A DNA stretch of 64,000 nt from an uncultured Lachnospiraceae bacterium. Lineage in GTDB: Bacteria > Bacillota > Clostridia > Lachnospirales > Lachnospiraceae. Of the stretch, positions 5,218 through 38,543 are shown one piece after another. The position numbers and the translations under genes are program-made. The DNA is taken from positions 62,001 to 126,000 of the forward strand of contig CAMWQW010000005.1 of assembly GCA_947176505.1 (NCBI GenBank), in the 5' to 3' direction. The stretch's first letter is position 1, and each line of letters begins with the position of its first letter. The notes beneath the pieces were generated by a model. That model did not search any database and was not told the origin of the DNA. It saw only the letters and a program-made list of their open reading frames with translations.

Positions 5218-5997
5218 ATGCACACGATTTTAGAACTTAAGCAGATTCAGAAATATTACGGTAATGAGGGTAATATTACAAAAGCAATCAATGATATCAG
5301 CTTTGCGGTTAAAGAGGGAGAATTCTTAGGAATTATGGGCGCTTCCGGTTCAGGAAAGACGACGCTTCTTAATTGCATTTCCACGATTGATACGGTAAGC
5401 GCAGGACATATTTATCTGGAGGGAAAAGATATCACAGAAATGAAACCTAAGGAGCTTGCGAAGTTCCGCAGAGAGAATCTGGGGTTTGTGTTTCAGGATT
5501 TCAATCTCTTAGATACGTTGACGATTTCCGAGAATATTGCGCTCGCACTGGCAATCAATAAAGTTCCGGCGGGAGAGGTAGAAGGGCGTGTTGAGGAAAT
5601 GTGCAGGAAGTTGAACATCCGTGATATTTTACGAAAATACCCGTATCAGGTTTCGGGCGGACAGAAACAGCGGTGTGCTTGTGCGAGAGCGCTGATCAAT
5701 CACCCGAAGCTTCTTCTGGCGGATGAGCCGACGGGAGCGCTTGACAGTCACTCTTCACAAATGCTGCTCTCCACGATGCAGCGTATCAATGAACAGCTTG
5801 GCACGACCATTCTTATGGTAACGCATGACGCTTTTACTGCGAGCTATGCCAGTCGTATTCTGTTCCTGAAAGACGGAGCGGTTTTTACGGAGCTTCGGCG
5901 AGGAGACGAAGGCAGAAGTACTTTTTTCAATAAAATCTTAAATGTTATGACGATGATTGGAGGTGGACAAAGTCATGTATGCGAAACTTGTGATTAG
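5218..5997 (+). CDS. bceA: BceA-like ABC transporter ATP-binding protein
   Basis: 259 aa. Walker A 'GASGSGKTTLL' (~residue 40), Q-loop 'FVFQDFNLLD', ABC signature 'VSGGQKQR', Walker B plus D-loop 'LLLADEPTGALDS', and H-loop 'VTHDA' are all intact. It belongs to the MacB/LolD-like class that pairs with FtsX-fold permeases. Its last 23 bases overlap the start of the permease gene, implying translational coupling. With BceB it is expected to free lipid II-cycle intermediates from peptide antibiotics and to signal to the kinase upstream. Expression is probably driven from the region holding the BceR box. Confidence 0.9.
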   Translation: MHTILELKQIQKYYGNEGNITKAINDISFAVKEGEFLGIMGASGSGKTTLLNCISTIDTVSAGHIYLEGKDITEMKPKELAKFRRENLGFVFQDFNLLDTLTISENIALALAINKVPAGEVEGRVEEMCRKLNIRDILRKYPYQVSGGQKQRCACARALINHPKLLLADEPTGALDSHSSQMLLSTMQRINEQLGTTILMVTHDAFTASYASRILFLKDGAVFTELRRGDEGRSTFFNKILNVMTMIGGGQSHVCETCD

Positions 5998-8248
5998 AAA
6001 TGCAAAGCGGTCAGTAAAAGAATATCTGGTCTATCTTGTGACGATGACCATTTGCGTTACCTTATTTTATTCGTTTCTGTCTATTTCCAGTAAATACTAT
6101 CAGCCGGATATCGGGATGGAATATAATTTTCGGATATTGGGTGACGGGATGAAATATGCAATCTGTGCAGTCACATTGCTGCTCATATTTTTAATAAATT
6201 ATGTAAACCAATATATGCTGCGAAGCAGACAGAAAGAATTTGCCGTGCAAGCCATCATGGGAATGGAGCAGAAGACAATCGGAATGCTCTTCCTTGCGGA
6301 GACATTTGTGATGGGGATTACAGCCATTATGTTGGGAATCATCTTGGGCATGTTCGGTTCCCAATTTATCACAGCGATGGTTCTTTCTACTTATAACAAG
6401 GACTATCGACTTACATGGACATTATTCCCGGATACGGTTCTTTTGACGATTGGTTTCTTCGTGTTGAGCTTTGCTGTGGTTGGATTTTTTAATCTGCGTG
6501 TAATCAGGAAGATTAAGATTATTGATATGCTGTCTGCGGATCGGGAGAATGAGCCTTCTTTAGAAAAAAGCCGCCAGATACCTGTTATGGTAATTCTGTT
6601 TGAAATGCTGACGGTATGGATGTTAGTGTCGGGTATCGAGAAAAAGTATTTTTATTTTGACAGCCGTATGCCGTTTCCTGTGCATATCATGTTCTGGGGA
6701 AATATTCTGTTTCCGGCGGTCACACTATTGTGGTCCGTGATATGGTTCATCAGGAAAAGATGGTCGAGAACAGCCGTCATGCCTGCAAAAACTATAGGAA
6801 GCGATGGTATGCATTGTGATAACAGGAAGCGAGAGACGCTGCTGGCTGGACTCTTGATATGCGCATTGCTTCATATACTGTCTGCAGCGAGTGTGCCTTC
6901 TGTGCAGAACGAATATTATCTTTCCATGGGTACCGGCACCGTCAATCAATATATGATGTTTGTACTCGGTAATCTGCTTTTCGTCATCTGTGCAGTCATC
7001 TATCTTGCCAATACCGTGCTTGTAGCGTGGAAGGAGCGGTCGCCGGAACACAGATACCGCAACCAGAATCTGTTTTTCTATGGGCAGATTACAACGAAGC
7101 TGTCTACCGCAAATAAAACTATGACCTTAATCAGCGTAACGCTTGTCACGGCAATTTTTCTGCTGATGGCAGCGCCTATTCTGATCGGATGGGCAAACGG
7201 TTATCTGGAGATGCGTGCGAAGTATGACGTGCAGATTTCTACAGGCTATACCAATGTCTATGAGGAAGAGGAGCTGCCTCGGGACGATTATGGATTTGTG
7301 ACGGATTATCTGGAGCAGAATGGGATTACAACGGCTTATGATTTAACTTTTAACTTGTATCTGCCAAAGAGAGATGATTTTCATAATCGGGTTAAATATG
7401 ATTTCCCGGCGGTGGCAATTTCGTTACATGACTATAATATGATCAGGGAAATGCTGGGATATGAGGCGATTTCTTTAGGGGAAAACGAGTTTACGACACA
7501 GTGGCAGTCGATTGCTACGGAAGACGACAGGGATGAATTTCTATGGACACACAAAGAAATTACTACGGATGCGGGGAGTCTGACGCTTGCCGAAAAGAAT
7601 TGTTATACGGACGCAATGGGAGAGACTCTTTATAACTATTATACAGATGTTTTGCTGGTGCTTCCCGACAGTGTCTGTGAACAACTGCTTCCGGTCAACA
7701 GGGACAGATATATCATGACAACCGACAAGATTTCTTATTTGCAGGCGCAGAAGCTTGAAGAGCTCTTCCGGTCAGTGTATCCGGAAAGTACAGGTATCGG
7801 AGCGGAATACAGAATCAGAACGAGTACGCTGCAAATCAGCAGCACGAAAGCAAATATGTTTGTCTTGCAGGCAGTCATGCTTTACGGGGCTGTTGTGCTG
7901 ATGGTAATTTGTTTTACGGTTCTTTCTTTGCAGCAACTTCTGGACTCCGCTCATTATAGGTACCGCTTTTCGGTGCTTCGCAAATTAGGAGTGGAAGAAA
8001 AAGAGATCGGACACCTTGTGCTGCAGCAGCTTGGTGTATGGTTCGGGCTGCCGGTTACCGTTGCCGTTTGTGTTTCGGCGGTTATTGTTGCATATTATAT
8101 GCAGTCGGTGTCGGCACAGATTATGGCATACATCGGAGTTGGCGCGCTGCTGGCACAGATGTCTCTGACAGGGGTAATTCTCTTGTTACTGTTGTTTAGC
8201 TACTTTATTAGTACATGGATACTCTTTAAGGGTTCCGTGAGTGCGTGA
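5975..8248 (+). CDS. bceB: BceB-like ABC transporter permease (FtsX fold)
   Basis: 757 aa, slightly longer than typical BceB. There are ten predicted membrane segments. A large extracytoplasmic domain (~residues 410-630) lies between segments 7 and 8, the hallmark of BceB-type permeases and the presumed peptide-recognition and signalling domain. Residues ~60-110 ('LLIFLINYVNQYMLRSRQKE') start the first FtsX unit; the second follows 'STKANMFVLQ'. ATG 5975 follows GGAGGTGG at 5960-5966 and overlaps bceA. The 3' end overlaps the convergent MATE gene by 63 bp. Ligand cannot be deduced from sequence. Confidence 0.87.
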   Translation: MYAKLVIRNAKRSVKEYLVYLVTMTICVTLFYSFLSISSKYYQPDIGMEYNFRILGDGMKYAICAVTLLLIFLINYVNQYMLRSRQKEFAVQAIMGMEQKTIGMLFLAETFVMGITAIMLGIILGMFGSQFITAMVLSTYNKDYRLTWTLFPDTVLLTIGFFVLSFAVVGFFNLRVIRKIKIIDMLSADRENEPSLEKSRQIPVMVILFEMLTVWMLVSGIEKKYFYFDSRMPFPVHIMFWGNILFPAVTLLWSVIWFIRKRWSRTAVMPAKTIGSDGMHCDNRKRETLLAGLLICALLHILSAASVPSVQNEYYLSMGTGTVNQYMMFVLGNLLFVICAVIYLANTVLVAWKERSPEHRYRNQNLFFYGQITTKLSTANKTMTLISVTLVTAIFLLMAAPILIGWANGYLEMRAKYDVQISTGYTNVYEEEELPRDDYGFVTDYLEQNGITTAYDLTFNLYLPKRDDFHNRVKYDFPAVAISLHDYNMIREMLGYEAISLGENEFTTQWQSIATEDDRDEFLWTHKEITTDAGSLTLAEKNCYTDAMGETLYNYYTDVLLVLPDSVCEQLLPVNRDRYIMTTDKISYLQAQKLEELFRSVYPESTGIGAEYRIRTSTLQISSTKANMFVLQAVMLYGAVVLMVICFTVLSLQQLLDSAHYRYRFSVLRKLGVEEKEIGHLVLQQLGVWFGLPVTVAVCVSAVIVAYYMQSVSAQIMAYIGVGALLAQMSLTGVILLLLLFSYFISTWILFKGSVSA

Positions 8249-32838: not shown

Positions 32839-34263
32839 CTATTCATTGCTGACCGTGAGCATGGAGGTATCTACCGTTGGATCGTTGGCGTCTCCCTTTG
32901 CCTTGCCAAGATAAGTGAGGGAGCCGTCCTCCTGATAGCGGTAGAAATAACTATAGTAGACATACTCATCGTTTTCATATTCACCGGACACAAGCATGAG
33001 CTCTACATAGCTGTCATCGGGAACCAAGTCATAAAGGAACAGAGGAGTTTCCGGCCATGTGGTGAATGATTGTGCAAGCTGCGTCTGGATCGTCTCGTCC
33101 TCACTCTGGGCAAAATCCGTATCATTGATAATCAGATGCGGCATAGTCTGAAAAGTGCCGTCCTCAGAAACGGAATCCTCAGTATAAACAAGAATGGAAT
33201 CTTCGGTGCCGTCATTATTCAAATCATAATGGTAAGTCTCCTTGCTCAGCAGTTTTCTTACGAATCTGTCCGCATAGGTATATGCATTATGAAATCCCAT
33301 GTCTGCTAAATCCCCGTAAGGAATGATAAATTCGATAATGCCGGCAGCAAAAGGACCGAGCGCGTAGGGACCGCTCATAAAGACCAGACCGGAAGTGGAC
33401 AGATACCATGCATCATCGGCATACAATACGGATTCCAGAGTACCGTCAGTAATGTTGTCCTCTGAAAACATTCGTTCTTTATAGTATTCTGTCTTAGCGA
33501 GGTTCTGATTATATGCGAGCGTATCTTCATGAAAAGCGGCATCATCGTCGCTTAAATCGCTAAAAGCAATCAAATCGCCGGTTTTGGCATTGTAGTTGAT
33601 ACCGATGGTATCATAGTTTCCATGAGCGCCGCCCGTATAGGCAGAATAGGTCATTGTAAAAGAAATGACATTGCTGTCGGCTCTTTTCGTTTGAAAAGAT
33701 AATTCTTCGTCGTAACCGGTGAAACTGATAGATTCTTTCTCAAAAGCGTCCTGTTCCGATTCAAACATGTCAAGATATTCTTTGCCCCACTCCTCCACTT
33801 CTGTGTTAGCGTTAAAAGATTCCACCCGGGAACTGATATCGGCATTAATTTTGTCGGCGGCAGCTTCATTTCCCTCTATGGAAACAGTCGGGTAAGAACT
33901 GCTTTTGTATAGATATACCGTACCGTCTTCGGCTGATTTGTTATTTTCTTCTTCCGTCATCTTTATCGTGATATGGGACGGCTCGCTTGTGACGTATGTG
34001 TCAGATTCATTCGCCGGATTTTCCTCGGAGTTGTCCTGCGGTGCGTTTTCCCCAATCTGTTCGTTGTTTTCGCTGTCTGTGATGTCTGTGGACTGCTGTG
34101 TGTCATTTCCTTCGGAATCTGACGTCATGTTTGAATCAGATGCATTTCCTGTGTCCGTACCGCACGCCGTGCAGCCGGCTGCTATGCCAAGAAGCAGAGT
34201 GCAGGATAAAGCGTATGATAGCGATTTACTCATAATGTGTCTGATTACATTGTTTTTTTTCAT
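32839..34263 (-). CDS. RsiV-like lipoprotein with DUF4163 and DUF3298 domains
   Basis: 474 aa. An N-terminal signal peptide ends at a lipobox with C31 ('LLGIAAGCTACG'). Residues ~40-85 are a Ser/Asp/Asn-rich linker. DUF4163 (~95-190) and DUF3298 (~195-300; 'YTGGAHGNYDTIGINYN') resemble the extracellular part of RsiV and PdaC. A C-terminal region (~310-474) has Asp-rich 'YDLNNDGTEDS', like a calcium-binding or VCBS-like loop. No anti-sigma domain is present, so a surface-exposed binding or envelope role is likely. ATG 34263 follows GGAGG. Confidence 0.75.
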   Translation of the reverse strand: MKKNNVIRHIMSKSLSYALSCTLLLGIAAGCTACGTDTGNASDSNMTSDSEGNDTQQSTDITDSENNEQIGENAPQDNSEENPANESDTYVTSEPSHITIKMTEEENNKSAEDGTVYLYKSSSYPTVSIEGNEAAADKINADISSRVESFNANTEVEEWGKEYLDMFESEQDAFEKESISFTGYDEELSFQTKRADSNVISFTMTYSAYTGGAHGNYDTIGINYNAKTGDLIAFSDLSDDDAAFHEDTLAYNQNLAKTEYYKERMFSEDNITDGTLESVLYADDAWYLSTSGLVFMSGPYALGPFAAGIIEFIIPYGDLADMGFHNAYTYADRFVRKLLSKETYHYDLNNDGTEDSILVYTEDSVSEDGTFQTMPHLIINDTDFAQSEDETIQTQLAQSFTTWPETPLFLYDLVPDDSYVELMLVSGEYENDEYVYYSYFYRYQEDGSLTYLGKAKGDANDPTVDTSMLTVSNE

Positions 34264-34616
34264 AATGTCCTCCATAATTTCCCGTTACCTGTCACATTGT
34301 ATTCTGTCAGTAAATACCATGGTACAAATCAAATGATGTACGCCGGAACACAAACGGTATGAGACAACAGGATATTAATTAGATATTGATTATAGTATAT
34401 ATTCAATTCATTCAAATTATTATCAGGGCATGAATTAGTATGACAGTTTGGAACTGAAATAGCAAGACTAATGTATGAAAAGATGCAAAAAAGATGCAAA
34501 CGCATAATGAACAACCGCACCCGTAGCCGGATGCGGTCATTCTTACACAACATATGAACTCTTAATATGATATTCCGCATACTTACGCAACTTGCATTTG
34601 TATCGGAGGATATCCG
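34264..34616. other. 353-bp intergenic region between flagellin end and lipoprotein start
   Basis: Apart from the flagellin terminator at 34514-34537, it holds a short direct repeat (AGATGCAAA twice, 34481-34500) and AT-rich sequence that should contain the lipoprotein promoter. No gene was seen here. Confidence 0.5.
34514..34537 (-). terminator. Stem-loop terminator after flagellin gene
   Basis: Reading leftward, ACCGCATCC pairs with GGGTGCGGT (one G-T wobble) over a 6-nt loop. The stem ends 80 bp after the flagellin stop. The following sequence is only moderately T-rich, with a T6 run further on, so efficiency is uncertain. Confidence 0.55.
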
Positions 34617-35564
34617 TTAACCGAGTAAGGACAGTGCCAGCTGGTTGGACTGATTTGCCTGTGACAACATAGATGTACCAGCCTGCTGCAAGATGTTGTT
34701 GTTTGCGTACTTAACCATCTCTGTAGCGATATCTGTATCACGGATCGCTGCTTCTGCAGATGTGGTGTTCTCTACTACGTTATCCAAGTTGTTGATCGTG
34801 TGCTCAAGTCTGTTCTGTACAGCACCGAGGTCAGATCTCTGCTGGGATACTAATGCCAGTGCAGCCTTTGCAAATGCATTTAAGGAGTTGAAATCCTTCT
34901 GAGTTGCAACTGTTGTGGAATCACCTGCTGTCAAGCCTGTGAAGGTGTCAATCAAATCCTCAGCCATAGCAGTTGTGATTGTTGCTTCATCCTGAACTAC
35001 ACCTTTTTCATCCAACGGACGGAAAGAAACTGATGTATAAAGCTTGTCATCGATTCCAGCCGCTAAACCTGCCATTGACATGTCTTCGATATCGATATCG
35101 ATGTGCTGTCCTGCTTCTGCACCTACCTGAAGTCCCTTGCCTGTGAAGGTTCCGTCTAACAGGTTCATCTCGTTGAAAGTTGTCGTGCTCTGTACACGGT
35201 CGATCTCGCTCATCAGCTGTGCTACTTCTCTCTGGATGTATGCACGGTCTGTTGTTGTCATCGTGCCGTTCTCACCCTTTACGGACAGCTCATTGATTCT
35301 CTGTAACATGTCATGTACTTCTGTCAGAGCGCCTTCTGCTGTCTGCACTGCACTGATACCGTCCTGTGCGTTAGCGGATGCCTGTGTAAGACCTCTCACC
35401 TGACGTCTCATCTTCTCGGAAATCGCAAGACCTGCTGCATCGTCTGCTGCACGGTTGATCTTGTAACCGGATGATAACTTCTCTGTGGACTTAGCCTGTG
35501 CGCTTGTTGTCAGACCAAGCATTCTGTTGGAATTCATTGCTGTAATGTTGTGTTGTACTATCAT
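34617..35564 (-). CDS. hag: Flagellin
   Basis: 315 aa. Conserved N-terminal D0/D1 ('MIVQHNITAMNSNRMLG', 'KLSSGYKINRAADDAAGLAI', 'QTAEGALTEVHDMLQRINEL') and C-terminal D1/D0 ('AIRDTDIATEMVKYANNNIL', 'QANQSNQLALSLLG') flank a central region of only ~90 residues, so a compact filament with no large hypervariable domain. The TLR5-contact segment around 'QRINEL' is present. AAGGAGGA lies 7 bases before the ATG. It is immediately downstream of csrA (112-bp gap) and has no convincing promoter of its own; transcription probably reads through from csrA and, in the inverted state, from the sigma-D promoter of the invertible segment. Confidence 0.96.
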   Translation of the reverse strand: MIVQHNITAMNSNRMLGLTTSAQAKSTEKLSSGYKINRAADDAAGLAISEKMRRQVRGLTQASANAQDGISAVQTAEGALTEVHDMLQRINELSVKGENGTMTTTDRAYIQREVAQLMSEIDRVQSTTTFNEMNLLDGTFTGKGLQVGAEAGQHIDIDIEDMSMAGLAAGIDDKLYTSVSFRPLDEKGVVQDEATITTAMAEDLIDTFTGLTAGDSTTVATQKDFNSLNAFAKAALALVSQQRSDLGAVQNRLEHTINNLDNVVENTTSAEAAIRDTDIATEMVKYANNNILQQAGTSMLSQANQSNQLALSLLG

Positions 35565-35570
35565 ATTTTT

Positions 35571-35610
35571 TCCTCCTTGATTTTGCCAGCCGCAATTCCG
35601 TTTGCGACCG
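35571..35610 (-). promoter_or_regulatory. Putative CsrA-binding leader of flagellin mRNA (two sites)
   Basis: On the minus strand GTCGCAA-ACGGAA-TTGCGGC (35608-35589) folds into a 7-bp stem (one G-U) with hexaloop ACGGAA, extendable to 9 pairs (35610-35587). An A(N)GGA core in a hairpin loop is the CsrA/RsmA recognition pattern. A second GGA lies in the Shine-Dalgarno AAGGAGG (35578-35572). Two sites, one upstream and one over the SD, reproduce the known layout of hag in Bacillus subtilis. Confidence 0.6.
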
Positions 35611-35676
35611 TTGTAATATGATTTAGTTATATTGTAATCCCGAAGCCCCTAGGATAGCATCGGGGTATTACCCTGT

Positions 35677-35922
35677 TTAAGAATGGTTCTTTTTCTTACG
35701 GTACTTCTCCGGAAGCTCCGGCACGGCGTAGTAGTGAGCGAGTTTTTTCTTCTCTTCCGGGTCGGTTGTCTGCGCTTCGATTACTTTGCTGCGGGCAACA
35801 TTGATATCTTTCGGAATATCTAACATGACCCGGGTATGGTTTTTACTGCCGCCTAAGAAAACGATTTTGATATCGTCGCCAATCATCAGATATTCTTCCG
35901 TGCTTACCGTCAGTCTTAACAT
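35677..35922 (-). CDS. csrA: CsrA-family translational regulator
   Basis: 81 aa. 'MLRLTVSTEEYLMIGDDIKI' followed by 'VMLDIPKDINVARSKVIEA' is the CsrA fold (five strands and a helix). The key RNA-contact Arg of strand 5 is kept in 'NVARSKV', but the basic residues at positions 6-7 of enterobacterial CsrA are replaced by V-S. A basic C-terminal extension (~residues 50-81, ending 'KYRKKKNHS') makes it longer than the usual 61-74. GGAGGTATCAC precedes the ATG. It lies directly upstream of flagellin on the same strand, where CsrA represses hag translation in Bacilli and Clostridia; FliW is not in this window. It starts 76 bp from the left inverted repeat. Confidence 0.87.
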   Translation of the reverse strand: MLRLTVSTEEYLMIGDDIKIVFLGGSKNHTRVMLDIPKDINVARSKVIEAQTTDPEEKKKLAHYYAVPELPEKYRKKKNHS

Positions 35923-35998
35923 TGTGATACCTCCCTGTATTTCTTTATTTGACATATTTGATAAAGCTGCTTCCCTGCATTTTGATTCTTTGAAGAGG

Positions 35999-36028
35999 AA
36001 TGCAACAGTTGTATAAGAAGTGTTGCAT
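35999..36028 (+). repeat. Left inverted repeat / recombinase site (IRL)
   Basis: Core 36001-36027: arm TGCAACAGTT, 7-bp spacer GTATAAG, arm AAGTGTTGCA. The arms are inverted copies with one mismatch (G at 36008). This 10-7-10 layout is that of tyrosine-recombinase crossover sites; the asymmetric spacer sets orientation. Sequence outside it toward csrA lacks a T-tract. Confidence 0.85.
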
Positions 36029-36053
36029 ACAAAATCAAGAGCAGTGCATTGCT

Positions 36054-36076
36054 TTTACAACAAAAGGTTGTATAGT
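36054..36076 (+). promoter_or_regulatory. Possible promoter region and small palindrome of recombinase gene
   Basis: TATAGT (36071-36076) is a -10 candidate; TTGCTT (36049-36054) lies 16 bp upstream as a weak -35. ACAAC-N5-GTTGT (36057-36071) overlaps this interval and could be an operator. The ribosome site AAAGGAG precedes the ATG at 36115. Confidence 0.35.
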
Positions 36077-36114
36077 GATGAAGGGACTAAATTCAGACGC
36101 AAAGGAGAATAGAT

Positions 36115-36696
36115 ATGAGCACAACATACCCAATCAAAAATGAAGAAAAATTGGAGAAATTTAAAGAGTACTATTTGACGGTCAAACCCGAATACAGAAA
36201 TTATACAATGATTATCCTTGGGCTGAATACGGCGTTTCGCATCAGTGATTTACTGATGCTAAAGTGGGGAGATGTATATAATAAGAAGAAACAGTGTTTC
36301 AAGGAGCACATCTGTATTATCGAACATAAGACCGGAAAAGAGCGGATTGTTGCGATTAATGCAAACGTATATAAAGCGCTTAATATTCTTGGGGAAGACA
36401 GTCACGATAGGAATGAAGAAAGTTATCTTTTTGCCAATGGAAGGAAGACGGATGCACACTTGTCACGTTCACAGGCGTTTCGTATTGTGAAAGAAGCAGC
36501 AGAATATGCAGGCTTAGATGAACACATTAGCTGCCATTCCCTTCGTAAGACTTTCGGGTATCATGCATGGAAGCAGGGAGTTCAGCCGGCATTGCTAATG
36601 GAGTTATACAATCATTCCTCTTATCGTGTTACGAAGAGGTACTTGTGCATTGAGCAGGAGGATAAGGATAGAGTCTACTTGAACGTACAGTTGTAA
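36115..36696 (+). CDS. Minimal tyrosine recombinase (invertase) inside the invertible segment
   Basis: 193 aa, essentially catalytic domain only, with no N-terminal core-binding domain of usual Xer size. All six catalytic residues are present: R42 ('AFRISDL'), K72 ('EHKTGK'), H141 and R144 ('CHSLRKTFG'), H167 ('YNHSS') and nucleophile Y176 ('TKRYL'). Comparable short recombinases in Firmicutes and FimB/FimE in enterobacteria invert adjacent promoters. The gene is flanked by 30-bp inverted repeats it presumably recombines, so inversion also flips its own orientation. It is followed by the sigma-D promoter 86 bp downstream and by a terminator-forming repeat. Confidence 0.9.
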   Translation: MSTTYPIKNEEKLEKFKEYYLTVKPEYRNYTMIILGLNTAFRISDLLMLKWGDVYNKKKQCFKEHICIIEHKTGKERIVAINANVYKALNILGEDSHDRNEESYLFANGRKTDAHLSRSQAFRIVKEAAEYAGLDEHISCHSLRKTFGYHAWKQGVQPALLMELYNHSSYRVTKRYLCIEQEDKDRVYLNVQL

Positions 36697-36781
36697 CGGC
36701 ATAATTCGGTGCGATTAATCGATATTATTCAATTCGAGTATTAAATGAGATTAATTTATATAAAAAAATTTAATTTTACTC

Positions 36782-36808
36782 TAAAGTATTCTGAGATGGC
36801 ACCGATAT
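36782..36808 (+). promoter_or_regulatory. Sigma-D (flagellar sigma factor) promoter inside invertible segment
   Basis: TAAA (36782-36785), 15-bp spacer, ACCGATAT (36801-36808), differing from the TAAA-N15-GCCGATAT consensus at one base. Start would fall near 36815, about 12 bp inside the right repeat boundary. In the present orientation it fires right into the IRR terminator; after inversion it would fire left toward csrA and flagellin. Confidence 0.8.
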
Positions 36809-36826
36809 ATAGAGTGTAAGGCAAAA

Positions 36827-36856
36827 ATGCAACACTTCTTATACAAGTGTTGCATT
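36827..36856 (-). repeat. Right inverted repeat / recombinase site (IRR)
   Basis: Core 36828-36854: TGCAACACTT, spacer CTTATAC, AAGTGTTGCA; the arms are perfectly inverted. Read on the minus strand it equals IRL except for one base. Opposite spacer orientation to IRL predicts inversion and not deletion of the intervening DNA. Confidence 0.85.
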
Positions 36857-36861
36857 TTTTT
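36828..36861 (+). terminator. Intrinsic terminator formed by IRR plus outside T7
   Basis: The 10-bp perfect stem of IRR with 7-nt loop is followed by seven T's (36855-36861). The T-tract beyond 36856 lies outside the invertible segment, so a terminator exists only for transcripts leaving through this end. It would stop both recombinase and sigma-D transcripts in the present orientation. Confidence 0.8.
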
Positions 36862-37106
36862 GTGTCTGTATCACAATGAAACAGGGTAACTATATTATAC
36901 CCTTACGGAAGGAAGGCTATGCTTTTATACACGCTTGAATGTCAAAGTAAATAATACTTTTCAACCCGCATTCTTTGTGATATAATGCGAGTCGGGAATT
37001 GTATAATGCATATATATGCAGAGTATGCATAATTTGGATATCTGCAATGAATATGAAGCAAATTGAAATGTGCAAGTTGTTTTGACAAGTGAAAGGATAG
37101 TGACAA
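36862..37106 (+). promoter_or_regulatory. Upstream region of amino-acid ABC operon with two -10 elements and a palindrome
   Basis: TATAAT occurs at 36981-36986 (with CTTTCA 17 bp upstream as weak -35) and at 37002-37007. The perfect 14-bp palindrome TGCATATATATGCA (37007-37020) overlaps the second and is followed by TATGCA, suggesting repressor binding. GAAAGGATAG precedes the ATG. No gene is seen in this stretch. Confidence 0.45.
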
Positions 37107-37805
37107 ATGACAGGGATTCAAACATGGTTTTCTGATTTCTGTGACTTATTTTATAAATGTTTTATCAGAGAAGACCGTTATAAGTTACTGTTAAGCGGAA
37201 TCGGCGTCACGATTAAAATATCGCTGTTAGCGGTCTTTATCGGTATATTGATTGGTATGCTGATTGCGATGTGCAATCTGTCCAAAAGAAAACTGCCGAG
37301 GGCACTCGGCGGAATCTATACGGATGTGATACGGGGAACGCCTTCCGTTACCCAGTTGATGATTATCTACTTTGTAATCTTTGCAACAGTGAATCTGGAT
37401 AAATGGATTATTGCGGCAATCGCCTTTGGCGTCAACTCCGGTGCGTATGTGTCGGAGATTATAAGAGGAGGAATCCTCTCGGTAGATCATGGGCAGACTG
37501 AGGCTGGCAGGTCGCTTGGACTCAATGCTTTTCAGACGATGACGAGAATTGTCATTCCGCAGGCAGTCAAGAATATTTTTCCGGCGCTGTGTAATGAATT
37601 TATCGTATTGATTAAGGAAACTGCCATCGTCGGCTATGTGGGTCTGATGGATATCCAGAAGGCGGGCGATTTTATTAAGAGCGCCACATTTGAAGCGTTT
37701 ATGCCATTGGTAGGAACCGCAGTGATTTACTATGTGCTGATTAAGATATTGACGCTGGCGCTTCGCCAAGTTGAGAAGCAGTTACGAAAATCCGATGTCA
37801 GGTAG
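37107..37805 (+). CDS. Polar amino-acid ABC transporter permease
   Basis: 232 aa, HisM/GlnP class. Five membrane helices; 'GVTIKISLLAVFIGILIGML' starts the transmembrane domain and 'EAGRSLGLNAFQTMTRIVIP' is the EAA coupling loop that contacts the ATPase. 'YTDVIRGTPSVTQLMIIYFV' is the conserved R-G-T-P segment of the family. First gene of a permease-ATPase-binding protein operon. It moves a polar or acidic amino acid inward; exact substrate unknown. Confidence 0.92.
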   Translation: MTGIQTWFSDFCDLFYKCFIREDRYKLLLSGIGVTIKISLLAVFIGILIGMLIAMCNLSKRKLPRALGGIYTDVIRGTPSVTQLMIIYFVIFATVNLDKWIIAAIAFGVNSGAYVSEIIRGGILSVDHGQTEAGRSLGLNAFQTMTRIVIPQAVKNIFPALCNEFIVLIKETAIVGYVGLMDIQKAGDFIKSATFEAFMPLVGTAVIYYVLIKILTLALRQVEKQLRKSDVR

Positions 37806-37820
37806 GAAGGAGTATGTTAT

Positions 37821-38543
37821 ATGATTCAAGTAAAGAACTTACATAAAAAATTCGGAGACCTGACAGTTTTAGACGGAATAGACGAGCACATTTCCCAAGG
37901 GGAAGTCGTTGTCGTGATCGGACCGTCCGGATCGGGTAAAAGTACTTTTCTCAGATGCTTAAATCTGCTTGAGAAAGCAACCGACGGCGAGATATATGTG
38001 GACGATCAGCTTATTAATGCACCGAAGGTGAATGTGAATCATGTCAGACAGAAGATGGGGATGGTATTCCAGCAGTTTAATTTATTCCCGCATCTTACGA
38101 TTATGGATAATATTACACTGGCACCGGTACTTCTTAAGAAGATGACAAAGGGGGAGGCTGTCAGGAAAGGACAGGAGCTTTTGGAGCGGGTTAATCTGTC
38201 CGAGAAGGCGGATGCTTATCCGGCACAGCTATCCGGAGGACAGAAGCAGCGTGTTGCAATTGCAAGGGCGCTTGCAATGAATCCGGAGATTATGCTTTTT
38301 GATGAACCGACTTCGGCGCTTGATCCGGAGATGGTGGGCGAGGTACTGGACGTTATGAAAGACCTTGCCAAATCCGGTATGACGATGGTGATCGTTACTC
38401 ATGAGATGGGGTTTGCCAGAGAAGTGGCTTCCAGAGTGCTTTTTATCGATCAAGGCAAAGTGATGGAGAGCGGAACGCCTGAGGAAGTATTCAATAACCC
38501 GAAGAATGAGAGAACAAAGCTGTTCTTAAGCAAAGTTTTATAG
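37821..38543 (+). CDS. Polar amino-acid ABC transporter ATP-binding protein
   Basis: 240 aa, GlnQ/ArtP class. Walker A '[12 protein letters not shown]', Q-loop '[11 protein letters not shown]', signature '[10 protein letters not shown]', Walker B '[13 protein letters not shown]', H-loop 'VTHEMGFAR'. It energises the permease encoded 15 bp upstream. AGGAAGGAG precedes the ATG. The gene is followed by stem-loops and then the binding-protein gene. Confidence 0.94.

Follow-up and report, generated by a model that had tools for sequence, protein, structure and literature searches.

A predicted invertible sigma-D promoter segment with its own tyrosine recombinase beside a second csrA and a flagellin gene in Lachnospiraceae

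The window, i.e. the whole 64-kb stretch of DNA analysed here, comes from the 4.17-Mb assembly of an uncultured Lachnospiraceae bacterium. It contains an invertible-type segment of 858 bp (35999-36856), which is bounded by inverted repeats of 30 nt (35999-36028 and 36827-36856). A csrA gene and a flagellin gene lie to the left of the segment and are read away from it. The following features were found at the locus:

34617..35564, minus strand: flagellin gene, 315 aa; the protein is identical to a copy on contig C40
35590..35607, minus strand: hairpin of the flagellin leader with GGA in the loop (predicted CsrA-binding site), just 5' of the Shine-Dalgarno sequence at 35572-35579
35677..35922, minus strand: second csrA gene (csrA2), 81 aa from the MLRLT start; alternative ORF start at 35955
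35999..36028, no strand assigned: csrA-proximal recombination site; outer arm 36000-36010 (one mismatch), spacer GTATAAG 36011-36017, inner arm 36018-36028
36115..36696, plus strand: tyrosine recombinase gene, predicted inverter; complete ORF of 193 aa inside the segment
36782..36808, plus strand: sigma-D/sigma-28-type promoter motif TAAA-N15-ACCGATAT, assigned by motif only; points away from csrA as sequenced
36823..36861, plus strand: 15-pair stem at the distal site followed by T, a predicted intrinsic terminator, based on the fold and on the T-tract asymmetry in relatives
36827..36856, no strand assigned: distal recombination site; inner arm 36827-36837, spacer CTTATAC 36838-36844, outer arm 36845-36855

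Most of this structure was described in the initial annotation, and its elements were recovered here. The 30-bp inverted repeats with one mismatch match at 29 of 30 positions, and the full recombinase gene reported between them is an intact ORF. The promoter said to lie 18 bp from the right repeat and to point right was located with TAAA at 36782-36785 and, after N15, ACCGATAT at 36801-36808. The csrA start (MLRLT) at 35922 lies at the claimed distance of 76 bp from the left repeat. The view that csrA and flagellin lack a convincing promoter of their own also holds: no minus-strand sigma-70-type site is listed between the segment and csrA, and the single one listed in the csrA-flagellin gap ends at the flagellin start codon.

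The repeats have an internal dyad structure (11-7-11), with two arms of 11 nt flanking a spacer of 7 nt in each. The left site reads ATGCAACAGTT-GTATAAG-AAGTGTTGCAT and the right one ATGCAACACTT-CTTATAC-AAGTGTTGCAT. The two spacers are reverse complements of each other, so that the sites oppose each other; with opposed sites a tyrosine recombinase causes inversion, not excision. As in inversion sites of tyrosine recombinases, half-sites surround a short spacer and the partner spacers are inverted and identical. Judged from sequence, the geometry of the repeat pair is that of inversion. A search of the window with the pattern of the site (11-N7-11, allowing up to 3 mismatches) recovered these two places alone, each on both strands, against a chance mean of 0.01. 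With up to 2 mismatches, the same two places were the only ones in the entire assembly, and the backward control pattern gave 0. As there is no further copy of the site, no contig with the alternative junction was present in this assembly, in which the reverse orientation was sought. Rfam gave zero matches in 34000-38000 at E up to 0.5.

Related loci were collected by the recombinase. The 108 non-redundant loci, window included, comprise the best 80 of 143 closest-relative loci, the genus matches and further stretches; being related, they are not independent of one another. The counts exclude L002-L004 (distant recombinases) and L220 (without recombinase). A csrA-like gene adjoins 89 of the 108 recombinase loci and is oriented away from the segment in all 89. 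Called repeats flank the recombinase in 84 of the 108, two of which (L075 and L111) are doubtful, and 76 of the 89 csrA loci are among those with called repeats. The other 13 had no repeat call in the main tally, though L009 and L100 were called in another analysis. The remaining 19 loci have no adjoining csrA, some of them carrying other cargo. A recombinase match was found in 40 of 77 genomes of the genus and, at E up to 1e-45, in 30 of 397 genomes (28 of 334 genera) of the family sample. Lone relatives of the recombinase stand by ORFs resembling ATP synthase by eye at L061, L083 and L085, with neither csrA nor called repeats.

The recombinase matches the Phage_integrase family (Pfam PF00589) at 92.9 bits. 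Residues R42, K72, K75, H141, R144, H167 and Y176, which we take to be catalytic, are kept in 88-89 of the 89 aligned loci, window included. The protein scored 43.4 bits against NCBIfam NF007371 (cut-off 222) and 37.6 bits against NF007370 (cut-off 221), thus falling far short of the FimB/FimE family-model cut-offs. Among solved structures, it was matched by distant Xer-like chains (4a8e, 5hxy) and, weakly, by repeat proteins.

Read as TAAA-N16-CCGATAT, the promoter motif of the segment agrees with the Butyrivibrio sigma-28 consensus TAAA-N16-17-MCGATAa quoted in the excerpt of PMC3720852. The strict motif occurs twice in the 64 kb (chance mean 0.5), and since 7 of 100 shuffles also reach two, it is not significant within the window alone. 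Among the 84 repeat-bearing loci, the strict motif was present inside the segment and outside the recombinase in 53, with 0.28 expected from mononucleotide shuffles. The strict form overlooks promoters with TTAA in place of TAAA at -35, and it was relaxed for this reason. The relaxed motif was found in 77 of the 84 loci (3.6 expected); it was chosen after the segments had been read and is thus fitted to the data, hence both counts are reported. Segments of approximately 2.0-2.6 kb, with additional ORFs between recombinase and promoter, were observed at L062, L067 and L103.

The switched CsrA scored 55.4 bits with the Pfam CsrA model (cut-off 27) and stayed under the NCBIfam csrA equivalog cut-offs (36.2 of 73 and 29.2 of 70.1). 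It keeps R44, presumably the RNA-binding Arg44 of CsrA, which is invariant in 16 of 16 aligned sequences. Of the two csrA genes in the genome, the one that comes after fliW is canonical, and the one at the switch is a divergent paralog with 21% identity. The switched flagellin is identical to that on contig C40 in 315 of 315 amino acids and 942 of 948 nucleotides, and the C40 gene has its own sigma-D-type motif upstream. The flagellin N-terminal model gave eight matches in the genome, including one likely FlgL and three in ORFs of 634-1256 aa; the other flagellins of the genome do differ from the switched one. Since the switched flagellin protein is also encoded on C40, the predicted product distinct to the switch is the second CsrA. 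On C40 (L185, 2663-3951), the contig ends in the 3' part of an additional tandem flagellin copy adjoining the one identical to the switched gene. Two or three tandem csrA-flagellin units are located behind one switch at L055, L056 and L072. At L074 (Roseburia faecis M72), a switch-like segment is accompanied by a divergent csrA, and the flagellin match is absent from the fetched stretch.

A GGA-loop hairpin near the Shine-Dalgarno sequence was found in 73 of 74 flagellin leaders behind switches, compared with 36.6 in shuffles. The leader alignment comprised 64 of the 84 flagellin leaders found, 62 of the 64 being distinct. Covariation of the hairpin was 0.436, as against 0.164 when shuffled and at most 0.073 when slid; the structure was derived from the same sequences on which it was tested, and the signal is lost upon sliding. 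Paired cells made up 89.3% (72.2% shuffled), and two-sided changes numbered 53 (14.4 shuffled). The C40 flagellin leader has a similar hairpin, GUGGC-AGGGAA-GCCAC. The csrA leaders are enriched in GGA-loop hairpins as well (54 of 76 vs 31 in shuffles). The hairpins in the flagellin leaders suggest that CsrA2 likely tunes or represses flagellin translation.

In the 89 csrA loci, the promoter faces away from csrA in 76 and toward it in 5, while 2 have both motifs and 6 have none. With called repeats, the respective numbers are 69, 4, 2 and 1; the loci without called repeats include 7 away, 1 toward and 5 with no motif. The 15 csrA-bearing loci of the family sample, one of which repeats a genus locus, gave 12 away, 0 toward and 3 with none. 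Assemblies present one orientation per genome, and these counts have no bearing on switching rates. The skew is strong, and switching may be rare or, in most cases, locked OFF.

A comparison of relatives for the opposite orientation had been named beforehand as a check of the inversion, and the opposite orientation was indeed found. In the five 'toward' loci (L054, L070, L072, L101 and L090), the inner segment aligns reversed to a close 'away' relative, for example over 793 bp at 75%. The csrA side of the same loci aligns forward, as does, in most of them, a short piece by the far site. At L077, L086 and L087, the recombinase is turned relative to the promoter, which nonetheless faces away. 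The sites themselves bear a further trace. When the two sites of each locus were compared across 76 loci, 4 of 532 spacer positions differed, against 171 of 836 in the outer arms and 50 of 836 in the inner arms; repeat calling favours similar sites, but not the location of the mismatches. In seven picked genomes with two switches, the spacers of the two differ, in G033 by one base. Spacers that are alike within a pair while the arms drift, and that vary between switches, would be expected if partner sites had exchanged repeatedly. A spacer of 7 bp, which holds in the window as 11-7-11, was assumed for the relatives; an automatic dyad search gave spacers of 5-9 there because A/T-rich arms lengthen the dyad. 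In genome G001, the end of one contig coincides exactly with such a site (L220), the single case of its kind. Assemblies break in this way where orientations mix, and this end is a hint, only suggestive, of mixed orientations in G001.

The two sites are not equivalent with respect to transcription. The distal site has a predicted fold of -20.1 kcal/mol (z -4.8), and the proximal side as sequenced a z of -0.6. In 76 loci, the 10 nt past the site contain on average 7.4 T distally and 2.5 proximally. The distal count is higher in 74, equal in 2 and lower in none (73, 2 and 1 if counted from the called repeat edge). The dyad is better at the distal site in 57 of the 76, equal in 14 and worse in 5. 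The first dyad tally placed the centre by a fit to the distal site, which was then mirrored, a possible bias in favour of that site; an independent fit of each site gave the same tally. In all four 'toward' loci with called repeats, the T-tract is still distal, so it is part of the fixed flank; their distal dyad is the better one in 2 and the worse one in 2. With T-richer DNA beyond it, the distal site looks like a built-in terminator that would make 'away' the OFF orientation. The sites are thereby predicted to form a one-way gate, with outward transcription stopping at the distal site and inward transcription passing the proximal one.

Probably, the segment is inverted by its own recombinase, and the promoter would drive csrA2 and flagellin only when facing them. 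As sequenced, the locus would be OFF, the promoter running outward into the distal dyad and T-tract. After inversion, the promoter would lie 18 bp inside the proximal site, where an imperfect dyad without a T-tract would allow read-through into csrA2-flagellin, with a transcript leader of approximately 118 nt. The useful output would supposedly be CsrA2 plus extra flagellin. With the predicted action of CsrA2 on flagellin translation, ON and OFF cells would differ in flagellin output. In view of the identical flagellin copy elsewhere, OFF need not alter the flagellin type. The self-contained flagellin ON/OFF cassette of the initial annotation, OFF in this assembly, is thus retained in part. 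What the reversed related loci and the terminator asymmetry support is an invertible segment that carries a sigma-D promoter together with its own recombinase and that faces away, in the predicted OFF state. It is not simply a flagellin ON/OFF device, because the same flagellin is encoded on C40 behind its own sigma-D-type motif and the distinct gene is csrA2.

The strong skew in orientation could also arise from a fixed or fossil arrangement, in which the recombinase came as a small mobile element and inverts no more, the orientation differences being old events. This would also fit the similar recombinases that lack a neighbouring csrA and called repeats (e.g., L061, L083 and L085). Such a state is improbable in view of the paired spacers, which are identical while the arms drift and which vary between loci, and of the key recombinase residues, conserved in 88-89 of 89 loci. 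The promoter is, moreover, conserved along with csrA and the terminator asymmetry, and the identities of recombinase and csrA covary across loci (Spearman 0.50, with a maximum of 0.22 in 500 permutations). The fossil reading is also disfavoured by the IMG/VR viral contigs, where 16 stretches fitted a pattern and 0 were confirmed as relatives.

Since the majority of assemblies face outward, this orientation might itself be the active one, the promoter serving the far side (an amino-acid ABC transporter from 37107) and csrA-flagellin being incidental. This is very improbable: in the window, the predicted terminator stands between the promoter and the far genes, the T-richer flank is on the far side in 74 of 76 loci, and csrA points away from the segment in all 89 loci that have it. 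In Eubacterium and Roseburia, in addition, many flagellin genes are reported to have sigma-28 promoters (excerpt of PMC3720852). A true antigenic switch, in which ON would swap the resident flagellin for a different one, has its precedent in Salmonella and could draw on the eight flagellin N-terminal matches, three of them in the long ORFs. It is nonetheless unlikely, the switched flagellin being the same as the C40 flagellin of this genome.

Inversion by the segment's own recombinase, the reading preferred here, has counterparts in known systems. The initial annotation had regarded a recombinase inside its own segment beside csrA and flagellin as an undescribed plan. This does not stand, as Salmonella hin-fljBA has that plan beside a flagellin operon: according to the excerpt of PMC9368917, the recombinase gene and promoter lie within the invertible segment and the flagellin operon outside it, and this downstream operon pairs flagellin with a regulator of flagellin expression. 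The present locus differs from the Salmonella plan in its tyrosine recombinase, in its csrA and in being spread across the family. Hin is a serine invertase, whereas the enzyme here is a tyrosine recombinase (PF00589), and the regulator is FljA in Salmonella and a CsrA paralog here. In hin-type systems the switched flagellin is unlike the other one, whereas here it is identical to the C40 copy. The product of a hin-type operon also represses the other flagellin; the present genome has csrA2 and candidate target hairpins. Unlike in hin-fljBA, the distal site here forms a predicted terminator. We propose that the locus is a tyrosine-recombinase analogue of hin-fljBA. A wider reading, tentative and rated slightly below an even chance, is that of a convergent counterpart across Lachnospiraceae, in which inversion would release CsrA2 to reprogram flagellin translation per cell and the sites would act as a one-way gate, the distal one as a terminator and the proximal one as a broken terminator. 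If true, one circuit was built twice from unrelated recombinases.

The flagellar switch of Clostridioides difficile is similar in that site-specific inversion between inverted repeats governs flagella (excerpt of PMC7446863). There, according to the same excerpt, the promoter is outside, the inverted piece lies in the flgB 5' UTR, and Rho acts on OFF transcripts. In contrast, promoter and recombinase are inside the segment here, and the site pair is unique. The C. difficile recombinase RecV is a tyrosine recombinase that is encoded elsewhere and serves other loci. In the cwpV switch of the same bacterium, a terminator is tied to the invertible region and the promoter is outside the segment; the present locus shares the linked terminator but has the promoter inside. 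FimB and FimE are likewise small tyrosine-type invertases, and the fim recombinase genes sit outside the inverted element. Flagellin homeostasis by Hag-FliW-CsrA is described for B. subtilis in the excerpt of PMC6529632. This genome resembles that system in having fliW with the canonical csrA and a GGA-loop hairpin by the flagellin Shine-Dalgarno sequence; it differs in having a second, divergent csrA, the switched one, immediately 5' of a flagellin gene. Searches of open-licence PMC papers gave no description of an invertible csrA-flagellin promoter in Lachnospiraceae.

A widespread and mostly predicted-OFF switch would let gut bacteria silence the flagellin operon heritably, cell by cell. 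The flagellins of gut Eubacterium and Roseburia are immunostimulatory, IL-8 being reported as secreted in response to flagellin preparations (excerpt of PMC3720852). The switch might also account for some of the fliC genes for which no promoter was found in that study.

The module may serve other cargo, as at L081 (Eubacterium sp. 14-2). There, a like segment at 5863-6693 has repeats matching at 32 of 33 positions and a sigma-D motif, but no csrA, and is flanked by secreted-looking ORFs of 570 and 718 aa. At L209, L210, L211, L212 and L214, recombinases that are 47-49% identical lie in repeat-bounded segments amid surface-sugar genes (NeuB-like, nucleotide-sugar and glycosyltransferase-like ORFs, named by eye). 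By eye, these segments have a sigma-A-like promoter in place of sigma-D, and they are possibly phase-variable glycan loci.
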